Shown here piece after piece: positions 384 through 63,700 of a DNA stretch of 64,000 bases (position 1 is its first letter; each line of letters opens with the position of its first letter). Below the pieces are notes generated by a model. That model was not told the origin of the DNA, did no database searches, and was given only the letters and a program-made list of their open reading frames with translations. A program made the translations under genes and the position numbers. This stretch comes from Cognatundibacterium curvum (GTDB taxonomy: Bacteria > Pseudomonadota > Gammaproteobacteria > Burkholderiales > Burkholderiaceae_D): contig NZ_JACOGD010000003.1 of NCBI RefSeq assembly GCF_014284235.1, forward strand, positions 1 through 64,000, given 5' to 3'.

Positions 384-2264
384 ATGGAACCACAACTTTT
401 GGAGTACTACAATCAGGAGCTGACCTATATGCGCGAGAGCGCTGCGGAGTTTGCTGAGCTGCACCCTAAGATTGCACGGCGTCTGGGTTTGCATGGGGTA
501 GAGGTGGCTGACCCTTATGTGGAAAGGCTGATCGAGGCATTTTGTTTTATGTCGGCGCGTATGCGTATCAAGCTGGATGCGGAGTTTCCACGCTTTACCC
601 AGCGTTTGCTGGAAGTGGTGTATCCGAATTATGTGAGCCCTACCCCGTCGATGGCGGTAGCACAGCTGCGCCCGGCGATGTTAGTCGGTGACTTTAGCAG
701 TGGCTTTGCAGTACCGCGCGACACGGCATTTTTTTCCAAGATACCGGAGGGTGAACAGACCGCTTGTGAATTCCGCTCCAGTCAGGATGTGATGTTGTGG
801 CCGATAGAAATCGTCGATGCCAGGCTGGCCGGCGTACCGCCCGATATTCCGGCCTTGGGGCGATATTTACCACCGCATTTGCAGGTCGCAGGCAGTCTGC
901 GCTTACGGCTGCGGGTTGTGGGTGAACTGAATTTTTCTGATCTCAAAGGCCTCGATAGTTTGCCCATCTATCTGAGCGGTGATGAGCAGATTGCCTCACA
1001 CTTGTTTGAATTGCTGCATGCAGGTGCGGTTGCGACGCTGACTGGCTTGCCGGGGCATATGGCGGATCAACCTCATGTGGTGGTTCAGGATGCACTGGTA
1101 AAGGAGGGCTTGCAGCCGGAACAGAGTGTGTTGCCGCTGGCCTGGAATACCTGGCATGGCCATAATTTACTGCATGAATATTTCGCTTGCCCGAGCCGGT
1201 TTTACTTTTTCTCTTTACAAAATCTGTCCGCCGGTTTGGCAAAAATCCAGGCGAAAGAAGCAGAAATCGTTATTCTGCTCACACGTGATACGCAAAGCCT
1301 GCGCGGTCTGGTAGATAAAAATCAGTTCGCATTATTTTGTACTCCGGTGGTGAATTTATTTCCGCGCCGGACCGACAGACTGGAAATAAAAACCGGTCAC
1401 AATGAGTTTCATTTGTTGCCAGATCGCGCACGCCCTATGGACTATGAAGTTTTCAGCGTATCTGAAATGCTGGCACAGCGTTCGGAAGCGGATGCCGGTG
1501 TGAGCTTCCGCCCTTTGTTCCAGACTTTGAACCAGGATGAGGGAAATCACGGGCGTTATTTTTCATTGCGGCGTGAACCCAGACTGGATTCTGACTCGGC
1601 CCGTAAATACGGCACCCGCACCGCCTATACCGGTACCGAAGTGTTTGTCAGTCTGGTGGATCAGCATGAAGCCCCCTACAGCGAAACACTGCGCTATTTG
1701 TCGGTACAGGCGATGCTCACCAATCGTGATTTGCCACGTCTGATACCGCGTAATGGGGTATCCGATCTGCGCGTGGTGGCATCCTTGCCACTGGAAAGTG
1801 TGGGTTTGATTCGCCCCCCCAGCGCACCGATGCCAGCGTTCGCTCAGGGCGAGATGGCCTGGCGTCTGGTGCGGCAGCTCAGCTTTAATTATCTGCCTTT
1901 GCTGGATATGGATGCACGCCAGGGGGCACAGGCTTTACGCGATATGCTGCGCTTATTCGTCAACACTCAGGATGTGGTGGCAGCGCGCCAGGTCAGCGCG
2001 CTGATCGGTAGCCATATAGAGCCAGTGACACGGCGTTTGCCTGGCAACGGGCCGTTGGTGTACGGGCGTGGTGTGCAATGTACGCTGACTGTGGATGAAG
2101 ACGGTTTCAGTGGCGTCAGTCCCTATTTGTTTGGCGTGGTCCTTGAGCATTATCTGGCACGTCATGTCGCCATCAATGTGTTCACCCAAACCAGGCTGGA
2201 GTCCATGCAGCGCGGCATGGTGGCAGAGTGGCCCGTGCGCATGGGCACACGAGGAGTGGTGTGA
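384..2264 (+). CDS. tssF: Type VI secretion baseplate protein TssF (VasA/ImpG family)
   Basis: The protein (626 aa) is a baseplate subunit of the type VI secretion system. In this family TssF joins TssG, TssE and TssK to form the cytoplasmic wedge that anchors the contractile tail to the membrane complex. The N-terminus MEPQLLEYYNQELTYMRESA, followed by a segment reading FAELHPKIARRLGL and then DPYVERLIEAFCFMSARMR, is the recognisable start of TssF. The length is typical (about 580-630 aa). The start is the ATG after a purine-rich stretch. The last bases overlap the tssG start (TGATG), so the two are translationally coupled. The upstream 249 bases hold no tssE or other recognisable type VI gene, so the usual order is broken or the partners lie elsewhere. 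Confidence 0.95.
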   Translation: MEPQLLEYYNQELTYMRESAAEFAELHPKIARRLGLHGVEVADPYVERLIEAFCFMSARMRIKLDAEFPRFTQRLLEVVYPNYVSPTPSMAVAQLRPAMLVGDFSSGFAVPRDTAFFSKIPEGEQTACEFRSSQDVMLWPIEIVDARLAGVPPDIPALGRYLPPHLQVAGSLRLRLRVVGELNFSDLKGLDSLPIYLSGDEQIASHLFELLHAGAVATLTGLPGHMADQPHVVVQDALVKEGLQPEQSVLPLAWNTWHGHNLLHEYFACPSRFYFFSLQNLSAGLAKIQAKEAEIVILLTRDTQSLRGLVDKNQFALFCTPVVNLFPRRTDRLEIKTGHNEFHLLPDRARPMDYEVFSVSEMLAQRSEADAGVSFRPLFQTLNQDEGNHGRYFSLRREPRLDSDSARKYGTRTAYTGTEVFVSLVDQHEAPYSETLRYLSVQAMLTNRDLPRLIPRNGVSDLRVVASLPLESVGLIRPPSAPMPAFAQGEMAWRLVRQLSFNYLPLLDMDARQGAQALRDMLRLFVNTQDVVAARQVSALIGSHIEPVTRRLPGNGPLVYGRGVQCTLTVDEDGFSGVSPYLFGVVLEHYLARHVAINVFTQTRLESMQRGMVAEWPVRMGTRGVV

Positions 2265-51783: not shown

Positions 51784-53259
51784 TTAGTTGGCCACCTTAG
51801 CCGGTATCCGCTCCAGCACCGCCAGCAACAATGTCCAGTATTGACCGACGGTTTCGATGTTGACCATCTCATCCGGGCCGTGTGGATAACGGATAGTCGG
51901 GCCTATCGATACCATGTCCAGATCCGGATAATGTTTTTTGAACAGGCCACACTCCAGACCCGCATGGATCACCATGATCACGGGTTCCTTGTGATAAATG
52001 CTCTCATAAGTTTGACGTACGATCGCCATCACCGGTGAGCTGGTGTCTGGTTTCCAGCCCGGATAGCAACCGGAAAAAGCGATCTGCGCGCCAGCCAGGT
52101 CGCTCAGACTTTGCAGGCTGCTTTCTATGTTTTCACGGCCACTGTCGATCAGTGAGCGTATCAGGCACAGGACGGTGACTTTGTCGCTGCTGGTACTGAT
52201 CACACCGACGTTCAGCGAACTCTCAGTCACACCGGCGATCTCGTCGCTCATGCGGATCACGCCGTTAGGGCAGCTGTTGATCAGGTTGATCAGTGTGCGC
52301 TGGCTGTCCGCCTGCAGAGTTTGCGCTGGTGCTGTGCTGGTTTCTAATTGCAGTTTCAATGCAGGTTCTGCACTCGCCAGTTCCGCTTGCAGTATGGCCT
52401 GATATTGCGACACGCGTTGTTGCAGCAAGCCGGCCTGTGCGGTTGGAACGGTAAAGCTGCATTGCGCTTCACGCGGGATCGCATTACGCAGCGAGCCTCC
52501 TTTGATCTCTGACAGCGCCAGACCCAGCTCTGCCGCATGGCCTGCCAAAAAACGTGCGATCAGTTTGTTTGCATTGCCACGGCCCAGATGGATATTCACA
52601 CCCGAGTGACCACCTTTTAAGCCAGACAAACTCAATGTATACGCCTGCTGATCTGCGGCTGCAGTCTGCCAGCTGACCGGTAATGAAATCTCTGCGTCCA
52701 CGCCACCGGCGCAGCCCATGTAAATTTCGCCTTCCTGTTCGGAGTCGGTATTGATCAGGATTTCTGCCTCCAGCATGCCAGGCTGCAGGCCGAAAGCGCC
52801 TGTCATGCCGGCTTCTTCATCGACCGTCAGCAGCACTTCCAGCGGGCCATGGCGGATATCATCCGCGCCCAGTATCGCCAGTGCAGATGCCATACCGATG
52901 CCATTGTCGGCACCCAGCGTGGTTCCGGTCGCCTTGACCCAGTCACCATCTATGCGTGGCTGAATAGGATCGGTCACGAAGTCATGCACCTTATCGGCAT
53001 TTTTTTGCGGCACCATATCAATATGCGCCTGTATCACCACCATTTTGCGGTCTTCCATGCCAGCCGTGGCTGGTTTGCGGATAATCAGATTACCTACCTG
53101 ATCCACTACCACCGGCAGGCCGCGTTGTTTCGCCCAGTCCTGGATCAGCTGGCTCAGCGCAGCTTCGTGCTTGGATGGGTGTGGGACTGCACAGATTTGT
53201 TCAAACCAGTGCCACAAAGGGCGAGGGAAAAGCTGATTCAGTTCGGTAGTGGTGGTCAC
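51784..53259 (-). CDS. pepD: Aminoacyl-histidine dipeptidase (PepD, M20 family)
   Basis: The 491-aa cytosolic metallopeptidase cleaves His- and other dipeptides. The M20 metal site is seen as VIQAHIDMVPQK (His and Asp ligands), LGADNGIGMA, and VDEEAGMTGAFGLQ (Glu base), and the C-terminal dimerisation domain follows. The length is typical of PepD. The start is a GTG at 53259 with CAGGA upstream; the frame runs 38 codons further but crosses the leader. No partner gene is adjacent, and the small TonB-C gene follows on the same strand. Confidence 0.93.
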   Translation of the reverse strand: MTTTTELNQLFPRPLWHWFEQICAVPHPSKHEAALSQLIQDWAKQRGLPVVVDQVGNLIIRKPATAGMEDRKMVVIQAHIDMVPQKNADKVHDFVTDPIQPRIDGDWVKATGTTLGADNGIGMASALAILGADDIRHGPLEVLLTVDEEAGMTGAFGLQPGMLEAEILINTDSEQEGEIYMGCAGGVDAEISLPVSWQTAAADQQAYTLSLSGLKGGHSGVNIHLGRGNANKLIARFLAGHAAELGLALSEIKGGSLRNAIPREAQCSFTVPTAQAGLLQQRVSQYQAILQAELASAEPALKLQLETSTAPAQTLQADSQRTLINLINSCPNGVIRMSDEIAGVTESSLNVGVISTSSDKVTVLCLIRSLIDSGRENIESSLQSLSDLAGAQIAFSGCYPGWKPDTSSPVMAIVRQTYESIYHKEPVIMVIHAGLECGLFKKHYPDLDMVSIGPTIRYPHGPDEMVNIETVGQYWTLLLAVLERIPAKVAN

Positions 53260-53434
53260 GATAAATATCCTGTAAAAACATAGCGCTTGCGTATGCGGCT
53301 GGCAGCCATCTACAGCAAGGCGGGCCGCGCGGCGGAAGCGGAAAGAAGACCCGCAGTTTACCATAGCGGGCATACGGCTAAGTGTCCGTAGCTGTACTGA
53401 CCGTGAGGGCGGTGCGGCTTAGTAACAAAGGCAA

Positions 53435-53465
53435 TAAAAAAGGATGACACCCGGTCATCCTTTTT
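53435..53465. terminator. Terminator between pepD and the small TonB-C gene
   Basis: AAAAAGGATGAC and GTCATCCTTTTT form a perfect 12-bp stem around ACCCG, with an A run before and a T run after, so it works for both strands. Confidence 0.92.
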
Positions 53466-53491
53466 GTCACAGCTTCATTGCGCAGACTGAA

Positions 53492-53827
53492 TTACGACAG
53501 GCTCCAGACGTATTCCAGTTTCGTCCAGACTTGCTGTGCTTTACCGTCTTTGCTGCCTGGTTTGAATTTGCAGGAAGAGAAAATCTTGGCAGTTGCCTTG
53601 TCCAGGGTTTTGGAGCCGCTGGATTTTTCGATTTTAGAATCCATCACGTTTCCATCCGCACCGACCAGCACTGCCAGCGTGACAGAACCACTTTCCTCAT
53701 TGATCAATGCCGCTTTTGGATAAACCACTTTTTCGCAAGTGTTTTTATCCATTACAGGGGAAATTTCGTTGGCAGAGACGCTGGACACAACAGCCAGCAA
53801 CGCAGTAGCTAATAGAATTTTTTTCAT
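53492..53827 (-). CDS. Small periplasmic TonB-C domain protein
   Basis: The 111-aa protein has a signal peptide (LLATALLAVVSSVSANE) and one TonB C-terminal domain (YPKAALINEESGSVTLAVLV, then SSGSKTLDKATAKIFSSCKF). It is related to the tandem-domain protein at 47529-48194. Like that protein it has no anchor or Pro-rich linker, so it is not a usual energy transducer. Such orphan domains may bind receptors or cell-wall components. The ribosome site is weak. Confidence 0.82.
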   Translation of the reverse strand: MKKILLATALLAVVSSVSANEISPVMDKNTCEKVVYPKAALINEESGSVTLAVLVGADGNVMDSKIEKSSGSKTLDKATAKIFSSCKFKPGSKDGKAQQVWTKLEYVWSLS

Positions 53828-54095
53828 GGGAAAATGCTCAATACAGACAAAGGTAAAAATGAATCAACAATCCGTGCCGGCGCGCAAATTTGTGCAGCGC
53901 AATAAACATGCGGGATTTTACGTATTTACTTTCTGAGTGGCAATTCATTTTGAAAAAAATTTGCCTGTTTATTCAACAGTAAAGCCGGTTCTGCACGAAA
54001 ATAGTGCGACTTGACTGCAACTGGTATTGATTGCATTACGACTGGCATTTGAAGTGGCATTGCACCGGTGCACAATGCCCGTGCTTCAGGCGCGC

Positions 54096-55499
54096 CTAGT
54101 CGTCCAGCCCGACCGCATAGTGATCTGCCTGACGCTGTCCAGGTACCCGGTGGCTGTACACCTCTTTGGTGATAGGCAGCATCGTGGCATCCCATTGTTG
54201 CCATTGCTGTTTCAGGCGCTGAAATTGCGCTGCCTGTAGTACCGCCAGATTGGCGCGTTCACGCGGGTCCTGGCGCAGATCGAATAAAAATTCGTTATTG
54301 CCGATTTTCAGATACTTCAGATAATTATCGATCACCGCGCGCTGCTGAAACGATTTATAACGCCAATACAGCGTGCGTGGAATTGCTTTTTCCTGTTGCG
54401 TCAGTACCGGCAACAGATTCACCCCGTCACTGGGAAAATCCGGGTCGGGCGCGACGCCTGCGGCTGCCAGCAAAGTCGGCAGCCAGTCCATGCCTATGCA
54501 AATCTGATCGGACACAGCAGGCTTGAGTGCGGCGGGCCAGCGTACGATGGCCGGTACCCGTATGCCGCCTTCCAGCAACTCAGTCTTTTGTCCCGACAAA
54601 GGCCAGGTATGAGAAAAACGTTCACCGCCATTGTCACTGGTAAAAATCACGATGGTATTGTCCGCCTGACCGGTTTCTTTTAAGGCCTGCAAGACTTTGC
54701 CTATGCCACTATCCATTGCGGCCACCATTTTTCCATAGGTTTCCAGACTGCCGCCATCAGCATGGATCAGTTTTTTCAGCGTGCCAGCCACGGCTTCATC
54801 CATAGGGCCTTCCCAGGGCCAGTGCGGTGCTGTGTAATGCAGGCTGAGCAGGAAAGGTGCGGCCTCTCTGGCATGCGCCCGCACATATTGCTCCGCGCGC
54901 TGGCTCAGGATGTCGGTGTAATAACCATGCTCATGCACCAGCTGCTCGCCTTCCCACAAATCCACCGGCTCGTTCGCACCTACCCCGGCCTTATGCGTGA
55001 AATAGTCGATTCCACCCTGCATATTCCCGAAAAAATACTGATAGCCACTTTTCAGCGGACCAAACTCAGGTGCTGCGCCCAGATGCCATTTGCCCGGCAG
55101 CGCAGTACGGTAACCGGATTTCCCTAACAGAGAAGGCAGCGTAGGATGGGCAGGCGATAAACCATGCCTGGATTTCGCATCCGGTATCGGCTCTTCCAGC
55201 CCGACGCGCAAACGGTATTGGTAACGTCCGGTGATAATGGCAGTGCGCGAGGCGGAACAGACCGGCGAATTTGCATACGCATGCGTCAGCCGCACGCCAT
55301 CACTCGCCAGTTGATCCAGCACTGGCGTGGCAAAGTCCCGCATGCCATAACAACCCAGATCGGCCCAGCCCAGATCATCCGCCATGATGAACAGAATATT
55401 CGGCCGCGCCTGCTGCGGCTTGGCCTGAACCAGCCCGGATAACATACTGGCAGCCAGGGCTGAGCTTCCTAAAAACTGACGACGTGAAATGGGTGGCAT
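54096..55499 (-). CDS. Tat-exported sulfatase (FGly type)
   Basis: The 467-aa enzyme hydrolyses sulfate esters in the periplasm. A twin-arginine signal (SRRQFLGSSALAASML) precedes the mature protein, and the core starts NILFIMADDLGWADLG with the metal-binding Asp pair. The formylglycine site is Cys81 in VCSASRTAIITG, matching the C-x-[PA]-S-R rule, so it needs a maturase elsewhere. The HIS and metal residues of the arylsulfatase family (GKWHLG, TSDNGG) are present. The substrate is unknown; no anSME or FGE gene is adjacent. Confidence 0.92.
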   Translation of the reverse strand: MPPISRRQFLGSSALAASMLSGLVQAKPQQARPNILFIMADDLGWADLGCYGMRDFATPVLDQLASDGVRLTHAYANSPVCSASRTAIITGRYQYRLRVGLEEPIPDAKSRHGLSPAHPTLPSLLGKSGYRTALPGKWHLGAAPEFGPLKSGYQYFFGNMQGGIDYFTHKAGVGANEPVDLWEGEQLVHEHGYYTDILSQRAEQYVRAHAREAAPFLLSLHYTAPHWPWEGPMDEAVAGTLKKLIHADGGSLETYGKMVAAMDSGIGKVLQALKETGQADNTIVIFTSDNGGERFSHTWPLSGQKTELLEGGIRVPAIVRWPAALKPAVSDQICIGMDWLPTLLAAAGVAPDPDFPSDGVNLLPVLTQQEKAIPRTLYWRYKSFQQRAVIDNYLKYLKIGNNEFLFDLRQDPRERANLAVLQAAQFQRLKQQWQQWDATMLPITKEVYSHRVPGQRQADHYAVGLDD

Positions 55500-55891
55500 A
55501 GTGCGTGCAGACGCAAAATGGAAAACTGGATTTTAATGGCAAGCAGCGCTTAGCTTCCACCGGCAGGCTAGATTCTTTTTTTATAAATTCATATCAGCCA
55601 TCATCTGTAGTGGCTGCAATGGTGCGCTTGTCGCTGGGGTTGGAGTAAAGATAGCAGTGCAATCTGAGCTGATTGCGCATGTGGCAGGCGAAGCTTCAAC
55701 ATCACTGCGACGCTGTTTAAGCAAGACGCCGCTAAAAAAATCAATCCTGCGCTGGCGGGAATTCAGCGTCGTTAAATGCAGGCGATAAGAGCCCAAAAAC
55801 AAAAGTAGAGTAGGGAAGGTTTTAAATAATCCGCCTGAACAGCGCCGCGGAACGAAGACCTGCTAAGTCAGCGCAAGCCGTGTGCCACAGC
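55500..55891. other. Gene-poor region downstream of the accessory gene
   Basis: About 390 bases hold no recognisable gene. A 73-codon minus-strand frame near 55581-55802 has no ribosome site or family features. A transition to more A+T-rich DNA begins to its right. Confidence 0.55.
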
Positions 55892-56065
55892 TTACTTGCC
55901 CGGCTTTTGTACACCCGATGCCGGCGGTAAAAAACCCAGGCGCTGCGCTTTTTCCACCGCTTCGCAAACTGCTTGCTTGACCAGCTTATTCATCATTGCG
56001 CTATCACGCAATTTTGCAGCGATCAAATCAGGCGGCTGCTTTATATCGACTGGAGGTGTTGCCAT
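55892..56065 (-). CDS. Small 57-aa protein of unknown function
   Basis: A 57-codon frame on the minus strand starts MATPPVDIKQPPDLIAAKLR and continues NKLVKQAVCEAVEKAQRLGF. AAGGG lies before the ATG at a good distance. The predicted helices and clean start make it a likely gene. It is divergent from the ATPase-HEPN gene and could be its small partner or antitoxin, but nothing in the sequence shows that. Confidence 0.5.
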   Translation of the reverse strand: MATPPVDIKQPPDLIAAKLRDSAMMNKLVKQAVCEAVEKAQRLGFLPPASGVQKPGK

Positions 56066-56300
56066 GATAAGCCCTTGTGAATAATAAGATCAGTGGCGAC
56101 GCCCTCTGCCACTAATTGTGGATCAGATAAAGCGGAATTGTCATAGACCCGCCACTCATCTGCTATACGAAGATACAGGAACTCTTTCTTGCTAATTAAG
56201 AAATTTTAATGCATTATTGAAATTGGTAATTGGTTAATAAAAGTACTTGTGTGAAGACTTTAAGCGTTTAGTATTAGCAAAATTGGAAGAATTAAAAATT

Positions 56301-58295
56301 ATGAATGACAAGCAGAATCCGGGTATATTGCCAGGTCTCGAACTTCGCGATTTCGGACCGCAAGAAATCCAAATCATTAATAATCTTAGCGCGTTCTGGT
56401 TTGTTTCTGGAGCCTCCATTTTGCGCACGGGGAAAAGGAATAGATTTCCATATGCATTCCTAAAGCCAACCGATCTCTTCATTCAGCGATTTAATTTTCA
56501 TGCTCAGTTGCTCTGTATCTTTCATAATTATCCCGAGGTAGACGGTCGGTTATTAGAAGCTATAGATAAAATAATTGCTACGAACGGACATCGTGTAGAC
56601 AGACTGTGCATTGTTCTTGTCACGAATGGAGAGGTCGTTTCTTCCACGTTATCCCGCTTTGAGGCTGATGGTGACCCTCGGATTATGGTGGCCTTCCGAT
56701 ATCACGAGTTAACTGGAGGGGTGAGCGCCAAGGAAGCGCTTATGATTCGACGGCTCGAAGAAACGCTTTATACAAAAGACCTCTTCTCAATTTCCTCTGT
56801 TCTTAAAACAGAGCGCTATTTCTATGGTCGAAAAACTGAGTTGCAACGGCTGATAGGTCAATATAACAATGGGGAGAATGGTTCGCTTTTTGGGTTGCGC
56901 CGCATAGGAAAATCGTCGTTGCTTTGGGCAGTGCTTCGAACGCTGAAACAAATGACCGTGCCTGTTGCATTTTTAGATTGCTCGGACCCCGGATTTCACA
57001 AAACCAAGTGGAATAAAGCCCTGTTCCGCGTCAAGGACACACTTTTCCGTGCCAATGGCATGGAGGATCTTGGTAAACAAGAGACTGCTTACACAGAAGA
57101 GGATGCCACAACCTGTTTCGCATCAGACCTAGCATTAGTGCGATTCAAATTTAATCGCCCGTCCTACCTGATTTTTGATGAGGTTGAGAACCTTTGTTTC
57201 GATGTTTCATCTTCAGAGCATTGGCGTAGCGGTGAGAACTTCCTTCCATTCTGGCAAGCGATTCGTTCGACATACCAACAGTCCACAAATATGTTTTCAT
57301 TTCTAATGTGTGGAACGAATCCCTATCCCCTAGAGACAGCTTATCTCCCTGGTGGTGTTGATAACCCTATTTATAAGTACATCGAACCCTATTACTTAGG
57401 CTTTTTTAACGTCGATGACGTAGAGCGCATGATCTCTCATTTGGGATTCTACATGGGAGTGACATTTGATCGTGAGGTATATACATATCTAACAGATGAC
57501 TTTGGCGGCCATCCGTTTTTAATTAAACAAGCCTGCAGCTTTCTTCGACTTAATCGTGTTACCGAAAATGTTCCACGGAAGATTCATATTCGAAAAGAAG
57601 AATACCGTGCCGCAAGAGATCAAATCAAAGCGCATACACGAAACTACATTGCATTAATTTTACAAGTGCTAACCGAACGATTCCCTCGCGAGTTTTCCTT
57701 GCTTAAACACCTTGCTGTTGATGATAAAAAGCTGTTTAATGCATATGCGGAAGATGATCCCCGCTCCATTGAACATCTGGTCGGTTACGGTCTAATAGAG
57801 AAGGTTACACAAGATTTTTGCTTTCGCATCAAGCTCGTTGAGGCTGCCGTGCAATATGATGCGCGGGATCTAGCGTGCCCCGAATCGTTGGAAGAACGCT
57901 GGGCATTGTTGAGCAAAGAGCGCAATCAGTTCGAGTTCGGATTCCGTGAGTTGGTTCGTAGCGTAGTTAAGATGGGCTACGGAGCTAAAGCAGGCAAAGA
58001 TTTTATTATCGGTTGTTTGAATAAACAGGTACAGATAGAAAAAGCAAGATGCCTGGATTTCGATGATATTTTCCGTGGGGAGATGTACTTCCTAGACTTG
58101 AAGCGAGCAGTCTTAAAAGACTGGGACAGATATCGGTTCATATTTAACGACGACAAAACTAAGTTCTCGGAATATGTAGATGCTGCGAATAAGTTTAGGT
58201 CTGATGCACATGCTGAGACGATTACGAAAGAAGAGTTCCGTTCAGTTATGCCCAAACTTGTTTGGTTGACCAAGGCGTTAAAGGATAATTCGTAG
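56301..58295 (+). CDS. P-loop ATPase (STAND/archaeal ATPase type) fused to a C-terminal HEPN/Swt1-like domain
   Basis: The 664-aa cytoplasmic protein has an N-terminal domain of about 150 residues that I cannot name. The ATPase follows: FYGRKTELQRLI, Walker A GLRRIGKSSLL (about 198-206), Walker B YLIFDEVENL (about 288-296) and the sensor-like FLMCGTNP. A winged-helix part comes next, then a C-terminal domain with YFLDLKRAVLKDWDRYRFIF and FRSDAHA (about 632-638). That pattern is close to the HEPN domain of the Swt1/ApeA type, where an Arg-x-x-x-His pair cuts RNA. ATG 56301 was chosen for the GGAAG upstream. The gene is visibly more A+T-rich than its neighbours. NTPase plus HEPN suggests a defence or abortive-infection protein; this is inferred from architecture. 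Confidence 0.78.
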   Translation: MNDKQNPGILPGLELRDFGPQEIQIINNLSAFWFVSGASILRTGKRNRFPYAFLKPTDLFIQRFNFHAQLLCIFHNYPEVDGRLLEAIDKIIATNGHRVDRLCIVLVTNGEVVSSTLSRFEADGDPRIMVAFRYHELTGGVSAKEALMIRRLEETLYTKDLFSISSVLKTERYFYGRKTELQRLIGQYNNGENGSLFGLRRIGKSSLLWAVLRTLKQMTVPVAFLDCSDPGFHKTKWNKALFRVKDTLFRANGMEDLGKQETAYTEEDATTCFASDLALVRFKFNRPSYLIFDEVENLCFDVSSSEHWRSGENFLPFWQAIRSTYQQSTNMFSFLMCGTNPYPLETAYLPGGVDNPIYKYIEPYYLGFFNVDDVERMISHLGFYMGVTFDREVYTYLTDDFGGHPFLIKQACSFLRLNRVTENVPRKIHIRKEEYRAARDQIKAHTRNYIALILQVLTERFPREFSLLKHLAVDDKKLFNAYAEDDPRSIEHLVGYGLIEKVTQDFCFRIKLVEAAVQYDARDLACPESLEERWALLSKERNQFEFGFRELVRSVVKMGYGAKAGKDFIIGCLNKQVQIEKARCLDFDDIFRGEMYFLDLKRAVLKDWDRYRFIFNDDKTKFSEYVDAANKFRSDAHAETITKEEFRSVMPKLVWLTKALKDNS

Positions 58296-58340
58296 TTTTA
58301 TAGCGATCAATTGGCGCGAATTTCCACTTTCGGGATAGAA

Positions 58341-58367
58341 GTGGCCTAACACGAAGTGTTAGGCCAC
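58341..58367 (+). terminator. Strong hairpin after the ATPase-HEPN gene
   Basis: GTGGCCTAACAC and GTGTTAGGCCAC form a perfect 12-bp stem around GAA. It lies 45 bases after the gene and probably ends its transcript, although the tail GTTTGAATT is poor in T. The stem contains GCCTAAC and GTTAGGC, the same core heptamers found at the ends of integron attC sites, but the 27-base length is too short for a real attC. Confidence 0.65.
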
Positions 58368-58544
58368 GTTTGAATTACATTAGTTGCTATACCTAAAAGA
58401 AAATAAAATATTGACGTAATTTTATTTCTCTATAAAAATTCCATTATTAATTTTTTAATATTTTCTACAGGCTTAGGCCTAATTAATTCTTTTTGAATAT
58501 GCAATGCCTGCTGAAAGAATTAGTTAAGGTGTGTAGTTTAGATT

Positions 58545-60296
58545 TTACTTCCCAAATGAATCCTTCAAAGTCGTAATCCGGTTAAACACCGGTTTGCCGA
58601 CTGTGCTGTCAACGCGGTCGGTCACGAAATAGCCGTGGCGTTCGAATTGCAGGCGGGTGTCGGGGGCGATGTTGTGTAAGCCGGGTTCGACGTAGGCGCG
58701 TATGGTTTCCAGGGATGCAGGATTCAATAAGGTCATGAAGTCTTTGCCGCCTGCGTCCGGGTTGGCGTCGGTGAACAGGCGGTCATACAGACGGACTTCC
58801 ACTTCCATTGCATCGGCTGCGTTGACCCAGTGGATATTGCCTTTGACTTTGTAATTGGCGCTGCCTTCGGTGCCGGATTTACTGTCGGCGAAGTAGTTGC
58901 AATGTACTGCGATCACGTTGCCGTTTTCATCTTTGTCGCAGCCTGTGCATTCGACTACATAGCCATAACGCAGACGAACTTTATTGCCCGGGAACAGACG
59001 GAAATAGCCTTTGACTGGCTCTTCCATGAAGTCTTCCTGTTCTATCCACAGTTCTTTACCGATGGTGAATTCGCGGTTGCCGCGTTCCGGATGATGTGGA
59101 TGTACCGGTGCGCTGCAGGCGATGTTCTGAGCTTCAGGGAAGTTATCGATGATCAGTTTCAGCGGACGCAGTACGGCAGTGGCGCGCGCTGCTTTCGGGT
59201 CGAGATCTTCGCGCAGGCAGCCTTCCAGCGTGCTGTAATCGATCCAGCCGTCGGAGCGGGTCACGCCTATGCGTTCGCAGAAGGCCTGGATAGATTCCGG
59301 GGTATAACCACGGCGGCGGATACCGACCACAGTCGGCATGCGCGGATCATCCCAGCCGCTGACGATGCCGTCTTCAACCAGCTTGCGCAATTTACGCTTA
59401 CTGGTCACGACATAGGTCAGGTTCAGACGGGCGAATTCATATTGACGCGGTACCGGACGCTGGACAAAACCGCCTTCTGCGGCGCGTTCGATAATCCAGT
59501 CGTAGAAAGGACGGTGATCCTGGAATTCCAGGGTACAGATAGAGTGCGAGATGTTTTCTATCGCGTCTTCCAGCGGATGCGCGTAATCGTACATCGGGTA
59601 GATGCACCAGGCGTCGCCGGTGCGGTGATGATGCGCATGGCGGATACGGTAAATGGCCGGATCGCGCATATTCATGTTTGGCGAAGCCATGTCGATTTTA
59701 GCGCGCAGGATGTGTTCGCCATCTTTGAATTCACCGGCTTTCATGCGACGGAACAGATCCAGCGATTCAGCGGCGCTGCGCTCACGGAAAGGCGAGTTCA
59801 CACCCGGCTTGGAAAAGTCGCCGCGATTGGCTGCCATGTCTTCCGCCGACTGGCTGTCTACATAGGCGTGGCCAGTGCTGATCAGGTGTTCAGCGATGGC
59901 ATAGAATTTGTCGAAATAATCGCTCGCGAAATACAAGTGATTGCCACCGCCTTTGGCTGCGGATTCCTGCCAGTCAAAGCCCAGCCATTTCACGCTGTCC
60001 ATGATGGAGTCTACGTATTCCTGGTCTTCTTTTTCCGGATTGGTGTCATCAAAACGCAGATGGCAGCGGCCATCATAGTCGCGTGCCAGACCAAAGTTCA
60101 GGCAGATCGACTTAGCGTGGCCGATATGCAGGTAGCCGTTCGGCTCAGGCGGGAAGCGCGTGATCACACTGGGCATGCCATCGCGTTGATAAGTGCCTGC
60201 GGCCTGGTCGTTATCGATGATGGCGCGTAAAAAGTTAGATACCGGTGCGGCTTCGGCTGCCGCTGCCGCTGCTTTATTTTTGTTGTCGTTGCTCAT
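58545..60296 (-). CDS. glnS: Glutaminyl-tRNA synthetase
   Basis: The 583-aa class I synthetase charges tRNA-Gln. It has the HIGH motif at residues 57-60 in EPNGYLHIGHAKS, the KMSKS-like TSKRKLRKLV, and the two anticodon-binding barrels at the C-terminus. An Ala/Glu-rich N-terminal extension of about 20 residues precedes the catalytic domain. The ribosome site is weak. It is divergent from dnaE; a promoter for each should lie in the 455-base gap between them. Confidence 0.96.
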   Translation of the reverse strand: MSNDNKNKAAAAAAEAAPVSNFLRAIIDNDQAAGTYQRDGMPSVITRFPPEPNGYLHIGHAKSICLNFGLARDYDGRCHLRFDDTNPEKEDQEYVDSIMDSVKWLGFDWQESAAKGGGNHLYFASDYFDKFYAIAEHLISTGHAYVDSQSAEDMAANRGDFSKPGVNSPFRERSAAESLDLFRRMKAGEFKDGEHILRAKIDMASPNMNMRDPAIYRIRHAHHHRTGDAWCIYPMYDYAHPLEDAIENISHSICTLEFQDHRPFYDWIIERAAEGGFVQRPVPRQYEFARLNLTYVVTSKRKLRKLVEDGIVSGWDDPRMPTVVGIRRRGYTPESIQAFCERIGVTRSDGWIDYSTLEGCLREDLDPKAARATAVLRPLKLIIDNFPEAQNIACSAPVHPHHPERGNREFTIGKELWIEQEDFMEEPVKGYFRLFPGNKVRLRYGYVVECTGCDKDENGNVIAVHCNYFADSKSGTEGSANYKVKGNIHWVNAADAMEVEVRLYDRLFTDANPDAGGKDFMTLLNPASLETIRAYVEPGLHNIAPDTRLQFERHGYFVTDRVDSTVGKPVFNRITTLKDSFGK

Positions 60297-60751
60297 AGTC
60301 TGGCCATTCAGGACGATACGTGATTATTTATGTATTAAATATCAAAAATTTAATTTAATACGGTGATTTTTTTAAGGGATGGCAGCAAACTGTTTTGCCG
60401 CCCCCGTATATACATAGAGGCACACCCAGACCGCGCTTTGCTCATTTAGCCTGCGCAGCGAGGCGTATGCACCCATAGTGGGATGTCAAGTATTTTACCG
60501 TAGCGCAGCACAGAAAGCGCGTTTGTTTGCGCTTCTGGCGGGGAAAAGCGCAGTAAAGCCGCGTCTGGCAGGCTAGTCACAGCACTGAGTGCGCATCATT
60601 TTATTGAAAAGTTAAGTTTCAGCTTATTTCAGCTTATCTGTGCAGCCCTGACAATAAGCCGGTCGCAGCCTGTTACTGTGCAGGCCAGGAAAGCTGGCTG
60701 AAATCTGCGCCGGACTACTGTAACTGCAGCTTGGCGCGGTAGAATAGCGGG
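60297..60751. other. Divergent intergenic region between glnS and dnaE
   Basis: About 455 bases. It begins A+T-rich (60300-60375), which suits the glnS promoter. A tandem TTTCAGCTTA lies near 60614-60636. No frame or RNA gene is evident, and neither promoter can be placed with confidence. Confidence 0.55.
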
Positions 60752-63700
60752 ATGACTACAGAATTGATAATTTCTCCCGACCAGGCAGTGACGCCTGAGG
60801 CCAGCGGCCCGCGCGATCCCCAATTTGTGCACTTACGTGTCCACTCAGAATATTCTATCGTGGATGGTTTGGTGCGCATCGACGATGTGATCAAGGCGGC
60901 GGCTAAGGATAAGCAGCCTGCGCTGGCAGTGACTGACCTGGCCAATTTATTTGGTATGGTGAAGTTTTATAAAGCCGCGCGTGGCAAGGGCATGAAGCCT
61001 ATCGCCGGTTGCGATGTCTGGATCAGTAATGATAATGACCGCGATAAGCCTACCCGCATGCTGCTGTTGGTGAAAAACCGTCAGGGCTATTTGCAGTTGT
61101 GCGAATTGCTGGCGACCGCCTGGCTCACCAATCAGCATCGTGGTCGCGCTGAGCTGCGCATAGAATGGCTGAAGCAATTACAGGACAGCGGTGCAGGTGG
61201 CAATCTGATCGCCTTGTCCGGCGCGCATTTTGGTGATGTCGGTACTGCGATTGACAATGGCAATATCGCGCTGGCCGAGCAATTGGCACTTCAATGGGAA
61301 AGCATCTTCCCGCGCCACTTTTATATCGAGATACAACGTGCCGGTCAGCCGAATATGGACAACCATGTGCGCGCTGCGGTCGCACTGGCGGGCCGTTTGC
61401 GCTTGCCGGTGGTGGCCACTCATCCGGTCCAGTTCCTGAGCAAAGACGATTTCACTGCGCATGAGGCGCGGGTCTGTATCGCGGAAGGCGATATGCTCGC
61501 CAATGGCCGCCGCGTGCGCCGCTTCAATGATCAGCAATGTTTTAAAACCCAGCAAGAGATGCAGACCTTGTTTGCTGATTTGCCGGTAGCATTGAAAAAT
61601 TCGGTAGAAATCGCCAAACGCTGCAATCTGACGCTGGAACTGGGTAAGCCTAAGTTGCCGGATTTCCCGACGCCGGATGGCATGAGCCTGAATGATTTCC
61701 TGGTGTTTGAAGCGCAGCGCGGGCTGGAATTCCGTTTGCAGCATTTATTCACCAACGAAGAGAAGCGTGAAAAAGAGCGGCCACGCTATGAAGCGCGCCT
61801 CAAGTTCGAAACCGATACCATCATCAAGATGGGTTTCCCCGGTTACTTCCTGATCGTGGCAGACTTTATTCAATGGGCCAAAAACAATGGGGTACCGGTG
61901 GGACCGGGCCGTGGTTCCGGTGCGGGTTCGCTGGTCGCGTATTCGCTATTGATTACTGACCTCGATCCGCTGCAATACAACCTGCTGTTCGAACGTTTCC
62001 TGAATCCTGAACGCGTTTCCATGCCCGACTTCGATATCGATTTCTGTCAGGAAGGCCGCGACCGCGTGATTCAGTATGTGAAAGATCGCTACGGTAAAGA
62101 TGCGGTGTCGCAGATTGCGACCTTCGGTACCATGGCGGCCAAAGGCGCGATCCGTGACGTGGGGCGTGTGCTGGACTTCGGCTACATGTTCTGTGATGGC
62201 GTGTCTAAGCTGATTCCTTTCAAACCGGGTAAACAAGTCACCATCGCTGAGGCGATTGTCGAAGAGCCTTTGCTGGCTGAGCGTCAGGAAAACGAGGAAG
62301 AGGTGAAAACCCTGCTCGATCTGGCGCAGCAGGTGGAAGGCATCACCCGTAACATCGGTATGCATGCGGGTGGTGTGTTGATTGCGCCCGGCAAGCTGAC
62401 CGATTTTTGTCCGCTGTACACCCAGGGTGGTGATTCTGGTGTGGTCTCGCAATATGATAAAGACGACGTGGAAGCGGTCGGTCTGGTCAAGTTCGACTTT
62501 TTGGGTCTGACTACGCTGACTATTCTTGACCGTGCGGTGCGTTACATCAAAATGCTGGACCCGGCGCTGCAAGACTTTGATCTGGCCAAGCTGCCGCTGG
62601 ATGACCGCGCCTCGTATGACTTACTGACCAAGGCCAAAACCGTGGCCGTGTTCCAGCTGGAAAGCCGCGGCATGCAGGGCATGCTGAAAGATGCGCGGCC
62701 AGATCGCTTTGAAGACATTATCGCGCTGGTGGCTTTGTATCGTCCGGGTCCTATGGATCTGATTCCCGACTTCTGCAAACGTAAGCACGGCGAGAAATTT
62801 GATTATCCCGATCCGCGTACTGAAGGCATTTTGTCTGAAACCTACGGCATCATGGTGTATCAGGAGCAGGTCATGCAGATGGCGCAGGTGGTCGGTGGCT
62901 ACTCACTGGGTGGCGCTGACTTACTGCGTCGTGCTATGGGTAAGAAAAAAGCCGAGGAAATGGCGGAGCACCGTAAGATTTTCCGTGAAGGTGCGGCCAA
63001 GGGTGGTTTGTCTGAGCAAAAAGCCGACGAGATTTTCGATTTGATGGAAAAATTCGCGGGTTACGGCTTCAACAAATCCCATGCTGCCGCGTATGCGCTG
63101 CTGTCTTACCACACCGCTTATCTGAAAGCCCATCATCCGGCCGCGTTCATGGCAGCCAATATGTCGCTCGCTATGGATGATACCGATAAGGTGAAAATCC
63201 TGGTTGAAGATGCGATGGATATCTGCAAGCTCAAAATGCTGCCGCCGGATATCAATCAGTCTGACTACCGCTTTATGCCAGTTGGCGAGCCAGGTAAAAA
63301 AGCGAACCAGATCCGTTATGGTCTGGGCGCGGTCAAAGGTTCAGGCCAGAATGCAATTGAAAACATTGTTGCTGCACGTGAGGCCGACGGACCATTCAAG
63401 GATTTATTCGATTTCTGCAAACGCGTCGATAAGCGCCAGGTTAACCGCCGTACCATAGAATCGCTGATACGTGCCGGTGCTATGGATAGTCTGGGCAAAG
63501 ACCGTGCGGTGTTGCTGGCTACTGTGACACTCGCGATAGAAGCGGCAGAACAGGCCGATGCGGCCGCCAATCAGGTCAGCCTGTTCGGTGACGATGATGA
63601 TCTGATCCCGCCACCGGAATACATCAGTGTGCCGCATTGGACCGACAAAAAACGCCTGACCGAAGAGAAGCTGGCGCTGGGCTTTTATTTGTCGGGGCAT

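Follow-up and report, generated by a model that had tools for sequence, protein, structure and literature searches.

A candidate one-gene anti-phage system with a STAND ATPase and a Swt1-like HEPN domain beside glnS in Cognatundibacterium curvum

The window analyzed here comprises the first 64,000 nucleotides of contig NZ_JACOGD010000003.1 of Cognatundibacterium curvum, and the gene under study is an intact open reading frame near its end (Table 1). The gene lies between an ORF that we take to be a sulfatase (54096-55499) and another that is presumably glnS (58545-60296), both named by reading the sequence for known motifs, and it is convergent with glnS. A small ORF of 57 aa lies on the reverse strand (55892-56065), between the sulfatase-like gene and the gene studied here. 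An alternative upstream start, the TTG at 56247, would extend the protein to 682 aa; in most aligned relatives the first ATG falls near the ATG of the window gene, which favors the latter, in an argument that is partly circular as the starts of the relatives were picked by a rule in a script. The initial annotation had described the gene as richer in A+T than its neighbors and as standing alone in the way of inserted cargo, and both descriptions were borne out: its G+C content of 0.434 is the lowest among the 34 window ORFs of at least 200 aa (mean 0.522, sd 0.028), and the protein was found in 0/35 other genomes of the same genus (E 1e-3; some of these genomes are incomplete), and the glnS 3' border of relatives is occupied by different genes, many of them AT-rich. 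Third-position GC is 0.44, against 0.64 in glnS, and no transposase or replication gene was seen by reading directly beside the gene. Collectively, this is apparently an acquired, lone gene. No RNA was matched by Rfam within 53000-61000, and a promoter scan found three sigma-70-like sites where 6.3 were expected. A 20-nt direct repeat with 80% identity on either side of the gene (56007-56026 and 58291-58310) was taken as chance.

Table 1. Features of the gene and its surroundings, with the transposase genes found near glnS in relatives. Positions are those of the window unless given as residues or as numbered loci.
Feature	Position	Strand	Basis
One-gene REase-like/STAND/HEPN protein, 664 aa	56301..58295	+	Intact ORF, start ATG 56301
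N-terminal domain, residues 1-160, alpha/beta fold, putative sensor	56301..56780	+	Model; fold suggestive only
STAND-type P-loop ATPase and winged helix, residues about 161-525	56781..57875	+	Motifs, model, structure matches
ATPase motifs	Residues: FYGR 174-177, Walker A 198-206, Walker B 289-294, GTNP 338-341, GGHP 402-405	+	96-row alignment
C-terminal Swt1-like HEPN domain, residues about 530-664	57888..58292	+	Profiles and conserved residues
AT-rich gap from gene end to glnS 3' end; edge of swap slot	58296..58544	.	Sequence reading and glnS-flank comparison
Perfect 12-bp inverted repeat with 3-nt loop, possible terminator	58341..58367	+	Consensus match only
REP-associated-type transposase genes (presumed) in relatives	L143:8170-8751, L146:8805-9350, L148:2830-3411, L153:2780-3226, L154, L163, L165		

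STAND NTPases are recognized by a Walker A motif, a Walker B motif with two acidic residues, an N-terminal hhGR motif and a GxP-type motif near the winged helix. The window protein carries this whole set, in the form of GLRRIGKSS (K204), LIFDEVE (D293/E294), FYGR and GGHP, and the intact Walker motifs noticed in the initial annotation are thus present. In a 96-row alignment of the family, D293, E294, N340 and G402-P405 are conserved in 100% of the rows, and G176, R177, G198, G203, K204 and G338 in 98%. In single-sequence searches, all AAA/STAND matches in Pfam were subthreshold (best AAA_14, E 8.9e-4; nSTAND1, E 0.013), and searches of NCBIfam and PDB with the window protein returned no match. 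Structure prediction, as the initial annotation had recommended, yielded a full-length AlphaFold2 model from 11 rows (mean pLDDT 84.2, pTM 0.70), whose ATPase part resembles the NLR/CED-4 fold. VIA-align matched this part to an archaeal ATPase (2qen; Z 19.1, rmsd 5.1, 325 aligned), CED-4 (2a5y; Z 17.6, rmsd 4.1, 295 aligned) and the plant NLR RPP1 (7dfv; Z 17.5, rmsd 3.9, 295 aligned), and Foldseek on the window model listed Avs3 and EfAvs5 (8dgc, 9jap) among its matches. Since the helices and strands of the model, together with alignments to CED-4 and ORC2 that reach residue 525, point to a winged-helix-like stretch before that residue, the winged-helix region read from the sequence at the outset is supported as a predicted feature. 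ORC, Cdc6 and TnsC likewise appear in the VIA-align list, at Z about 13 to 19, as might be expected if the protein were a DNA-dependent AAA+ helper of mobile-element replication or transposition. We regard such a role as very improbable, because NLR and apoptosome ATPases occur in the same list at nearly equal Z, the protein ends in a HEPN domain, the gene travels as single-gene cargo in unrelated elements, and its immediate neighbors in the window, as read, include no gene for either process.

The segment behind the ATPase had been likened in the initial annotation to the HEPN domain of Swt1/ApeA-type proteins, on account of a layout that includes the RSDAHA motif (residues 633-638). R633, H637 and E545 each occur in 93 of the 96 rows, and R541 occurs in 91. 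R541, E545, N630, R633 and H637 are all invariant in 58 C-terminal domains chosen from those rows, a narrower statement than the 96-row counts, as three relatives with another C-terminus (L019, L020 and L026) were excluded. The HEPN toxin RnlA has a comparable set of R/E plus R/H residues. When the C-terminal domains were searched separately, PF18731 (HEPN_Swt1) was the only widely recurring Pfam family, matching 14/58 chosen domains (best E 1.9e-5), with no other family in more than two; 44/58, the window domain among them, had no PF18731 match. Scanned singly, 6/10 domains matched about positions 6-103 of the 115 of PF18731, and all single-sequence scores lay below the Pfam gathering cut-off (best 25.3 vs 27.5 bits). 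Profile comparison by hhalign of the family with seven genuine PF18731 domains gave Prob 94.7 over 111 columns, with R aligned on R and H on H, the family motif being one residue shorter than the RNxxxH of the genuine domains; a control with the N-terminal profile gave Prob 0.3. Run as a profile against PDB, the C-terminal alignment returned seven chance-level rows (best E 0.18), and PF18731 was found in 0/61 genomes around G718, a result that is uninformative because the controls also gave none. In the full-length model, residues 530-663 form helices only, with R633 and H637 preceding the helix at 643-663.

The spacing of the motif deserves mention, as the window protein has Rx3H and not the textbook Rx4-6H. 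By regular expression, 79 of 101 members showed Rx3H, 15 showed Rx4H (one of these, L083, is a false match, so that about 14/101 relatives have Rx4H) and seven showed neither (two of these, L003 and L004, have Rx3H on inspection). In the tabulated part of a 2013 survey of HEPN families, Rx4-6H marks active families and not membership, and families without R or H are included (PMC3710099). Judged from the profiles and the full-length model, the C-terminus is probably a divergent Swt1-like HEPN domain that would cut RNA; the profiles are HEPN-like and do not point to the other kind of fold that the initial annotation had considered as the alternative. Three relatives (L019:610-2727, L020:7896-9941 and L026:1474-3522) keep the front parts of the protein and carry a different C-terminal domain with RNxxxH and no Pfam match, an arrangement that, at the level of sequence, fits an exchangeable effector.

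The N-terminal domain was modeled alone from 54 rows (pLDDT 91.2, pTM 0.87). Foldseek found no PDB match for it at E 1e-3, the best being RPB5 at 1.4e-3, and in a viral library it found one unnamed protein (9.2e-4) followed by RPB5 proteins. Most of the VIA-align list consisted of RPB5 and of proteins that we take to have restriction-endonuclease-type folds, namely EndoMS (Z 6.7, rmsd 3.4, 103 aligned), FokI (6.6), EcoT38I (6.5), BspD6I, XisH and Can2; acetyl-CoA carboxylase appeared in it too. Because all Z scores are under 8, the resemblance of the model to restriction-endonuclease and RPB5-jaw folds is only suggestive. A separate profile search of this region, also proposed in the initial annotation, was productive in part: the N-terminal alignment returned no rows from PDB, and Pfam gave weak matches to RE_HaeII and PDDEXK_15, in 2/54 members each. 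These matches, and the likeness of the model to EndoMS, FokI, EcoT38I, BspD6I and Can2 (VIA-align Z 5.2 to 6.7), are what an active DNA-cutting nuclease would be expected to show, in which case the N-terminal domain would be the main effector and the HEPN domain structural or RNA-binding. That arrangement seems improbable to us, given that the PD-(D/E)XK motif is absent, with no E-x-K on the third strand, that the glutamate found at position 69 in 89/96 rows is Gln in the window protein, that the Z scores are low, and that conservation within the HEPN domain is highest at R, H and E. R83 and R98 of the N-terminal domain are kept in 92/96 rows each. We therefore prefer to view the modeled domain as a putative recognition module. 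In one relative (L016:7749-10058) a cold-shock domain is added at the N-terminus (Pfam CSD, E 2.8e-8), which hints that the sensor part may bind RNA or single-stranded DNA.

Avs proteins carry the effector at the N-terminus and a repeat sensor at the C-terminus. The window protein has in common with Avs3 and EfAvs5 the STAND ATPase core recovered by Foldseek and the predicted sensor-switch-effector logic, but its order is reversed, with the HEPN domain C-terminal and no repeats after it, the protein ending at residue 664; it does not have the Avs architecture. In PARIS, PrrC and other ATPase-controlled RNases, an ATPase likewise gates an RNA-cutting effector, whereas the ATPase and nuclease families are others, and these systems use two genes or ABC-type ATPases. 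Searched with PADLOC-DB 2.0.0 (2023), 63 members of the family matched only PDC-M34B models, in four and two members (best 6.8e-9), and the window protein had no match at E 1e-5 (weak PDC-S01, 1.4e-3); no PADLOC (2023) model covers the family, which is uncatalogued in that sense. The suggestion of the initial annotation that the gene may be an undescribed member thus stands for the catalog and does not stand for the fusion as a kind, since Swt1-like HEPN domains joined to STAND NTPases, with a predicted conflict role, already appear in a published table (Anantharaman et al. 2013, PMC3710099). The entry in Table 1 of that survey reads 'STAND-ATPase, TPR, S1 (Npun_F6454, MED222_16016, Desac_1927)'; compared by this description, it differs from the window protein, in which neither TPR nor S1 was found and which has an N-terminal REase-like domain. 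Among the papers listed by searches of the open-access literature, none was recognized as describing or testing the family. The available text on DefensePredictor (PMC13092281) reports several validated HEPN and P-loop systems, which may or may not include a relative.

By tblastn, 19 plasmid records were found to carry relatives, with conjugative Klebsiella plasmids accounting for 16 of these (36-37% identity), and the phages collection gave no match to the window protein. Fourteen loci came from IMG/VR viral contigs, and relatives occurred in three other genomes of 369 in the class and four other genomes of 398 in the phylum, one of the latter a weak partial match. GTDB genome contigs yielded no relative when searched with the single window protein, whereas a search with alignment A3 gave 87 loci, of which 80 were kept. 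In total, 102 family loci were collected, of which 95, with the window, make up the 96-row alignment statistics (L079, L082, L097, L021, L022, L004 and L016 were left out). The collection is partly redundant, as each of the pairs L024/L054 and L006/L092 probably represents a single contig and L083/L106 and L034/L035 are near-copies; allowing for near-copies, there are about 90 distinct relatives, in prophages, plasmids and chromosomes. Beta-proteobacteria supply the rows closest to the window protein, namely Giesbergeria (52%), an uncultured beta-proteobacterium (48%) and Gallionella (45%). In a tree of the window protein and 73 proteins from genome loci, with 14 phylum labels taken from record titles, the phyla are mixed: for Pseudomonadota the label has to change 11 times, and at least nine of these changes are forced by well-supported branches. 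This pattern suggests horizontal spread of the family, of which phylum mixing alone is no proof.

In E. coli, 5/5426 genomes have a copy 94% DNA-identical to the Klebsiella plasmid gene, all chromosomal. All five copies occupy the int-psu interval of a P4-like satellite at tRNA-Sec, beside the integrase, the P4-like assignment being made by reading from psu, ogr/Delta, Icd-like and primase genes; because they share the tRNA-Sec site, they are probably one lineage. The protein of the E. coli P4-satellite relative has the accession WP_021563882.1. IS elements interrupt int and psu in strain C5, and an IS21 element separates the gene from psu in CH4799. A second relative occurs in two more E. coli genomes, beside a prophage integrase. 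Two of the five P4-like copies are annotated as two pieces (L186:12001-14003 and L190:4001-6004), which may mark a costly or dispensable cargo gene. The int-psu locus of P4 has been described as a hotspot where antiviral systems probably accumulate as in a reservoir (Rousset et al. 2022, PMC9122126), and the E. coli relatives occupy this same slot; the available text of that paper mentions HEPN-containing uncharacterized systems and does not describe a protein of the window type. Around prophage copies on viral contigs (L011, L012, L014, L015 and L018), all ten neighboring proteins scanned match PHROGs families; nine fall into tail, baseplate, replication, DnaB-like or HNH families, and the tenth belongs to a family of unknown function. 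Two loci with prophage flanks that are common by reading have different occupants: a family member in L014:7962-9983, and in L021:6936-10813 a cold-shock/TPR/STAND relative with a second ATPase.

Residence in a hotspot need not mean a defensive role, and the same surroundings could be read as those of a selfish addiction or competition module, in which the ATPase or a neighbor restrains a HEPN toxin and the benefit is retention of the element. The prevalence of conjugative plasmids among the plasmid records (16/19) and the integrases adjoining the E. coli copies (7/7) would suit such a module, as would the toxin-antitoxin-like genes near some relatives: in L006 an HTH and a RelE-like ORF, identified by eye, immediately precede the family gene, VapBC lies at a distance of about 4.5 kb in L002, and PIN/AbrB genes occur in L003. 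However, no common partner gene stood out in the neighborhoods inspected by eye, the window copy is chromosomal and alone, and the slots used hold recognized defense genes; we consider this explanation unlikely, though less so than either an AAA+ helper or an active N-terminal nuclease.

The last of these points was followed at the locus itself by comparing the glnS border across the genus, as the initial annotation had proposed. A glnS search of 39 genus genomes matched 34, and the 3' flank was taken from 31 relatives; flanks no longer than 1.4 kb, with their intergenic DNA, were compared in 30 genomes including the window's own, with the 5' flank as the one control. Flank pairs had coding in common in 5/435 cases 3' of glnS, as opposed to 65/406 cases 5' of it (29 usable 5' flanks). 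The 3' flanks average 12.6 GC points below glnS (22/30 by more than 8), against 2.6 points for the 5' flanks (2/29 by more than 8), and in 18/32 loci, including the window, the ORF nearest to glnS falls 10 or more GC points below glnS itself. A PADLOC scan of 17 slot proteins from 16/31 relatives, picked as glnS-adjacent and mostly AT-rich, gave matches at E below 1e-10 for the occupants in 9/16: an RT-Toprim retron, a retron II-A partner (NDT_II-A), NsnA, a pAgo-associated protein, PD-Lambda-1, two AriA/PtuA-like ATPases (a broad ATPase class) and two SIR2 proteins (PDC-S25). The varied matches indicate that the slot holds different defense genes in different species, and the glnS 3' border (loci L138-L168) is a swap slot in the genus. 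The window gene is not a fixed resident there, as it would have been if shared by all relatives.

Since the gene is lone and apparently acquired, joins a possible sensor and a STAND-type ATPase to a probable RNA-cutting HEPN domain and sits at a site where relatives carry antiviral genes, it is probably a one-gene anti-phage defense, for which its position gives strong support; we put the probability that it is an abortive-infection system of this kind, with both defense and RNase activity predicted, at roughly 70%. The observed basis is the domain order, the conserved catalytic-type residues, the patchy, phylum-mixed distribution and the defense-gene slots, from which we infer N-terminal sensing, oligomerization, RNase activity and phage protection. 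In the proposed mechanism, the N-terminal domain would recognize an infection cue, which may be a phage nucleic acid, nucleotide or protein, and the cue would cause the STAND ATPase to exchange its nucleotide and to oligomerize, in the manner of NLR and Avs proteins. Oligomerization would bring the C-terminal Swt1-like HEPN domains together, and the HEPN dimer would then cut RNA, perhaps tRNA or mRNA, halting translation before phage release. More tentatively, and with odds short of even, the relatives may constitute a widespread, uncatalogued group of NLR-like one-protein receptors in reversed order, sensor first and RNase last, in which the sensor is a catalytically dead, RPB5-jaw-like restriction-endonuclease fold and the RNase part is exchangeable, being a Swt1-type HEPN domain in most and the RNxxxH domain in some. 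If the defense reading is true, the known repertoire gains a compact one-gene immune receptor whose family goes unrecognized by PADLOC (2023), with relatives under 14 phylum labels, in P4-like satellites of E. coli and on conjugative plasmids of Klebsiella; the protein would also offer a simple test case for a dead nuclease fold acting as a phage sensor.

On the same reading, the glnS 3' border would be a single-slot defense hotspot of this genus, with several AT-rich genes as further candidates. A significant PADLOC match was absent in 7/16 scanned relatives (L143, L144, L146, L154, L158, L160 and L165). Six of these loci have AT-rich slot genes (L143:9224-10303, L144:4098-5750, L154:5059-6150, L158:5084-6247, L160:323-3910 and L165:5077-6240); the occupants scanned there, in L160 the first gene only, had no significant PADLOC match, and we regard these genes as further candidate new defense genes. 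No integrase was noticed by eye in the slot. In 7/31 relatives, 1.4-3.9 kb from the glnS 3' end, there is a gene that we presume, recognizing it by eye from its start, to encode a REP-associated-type transposase (Table 1), which might help exchange in the slot.
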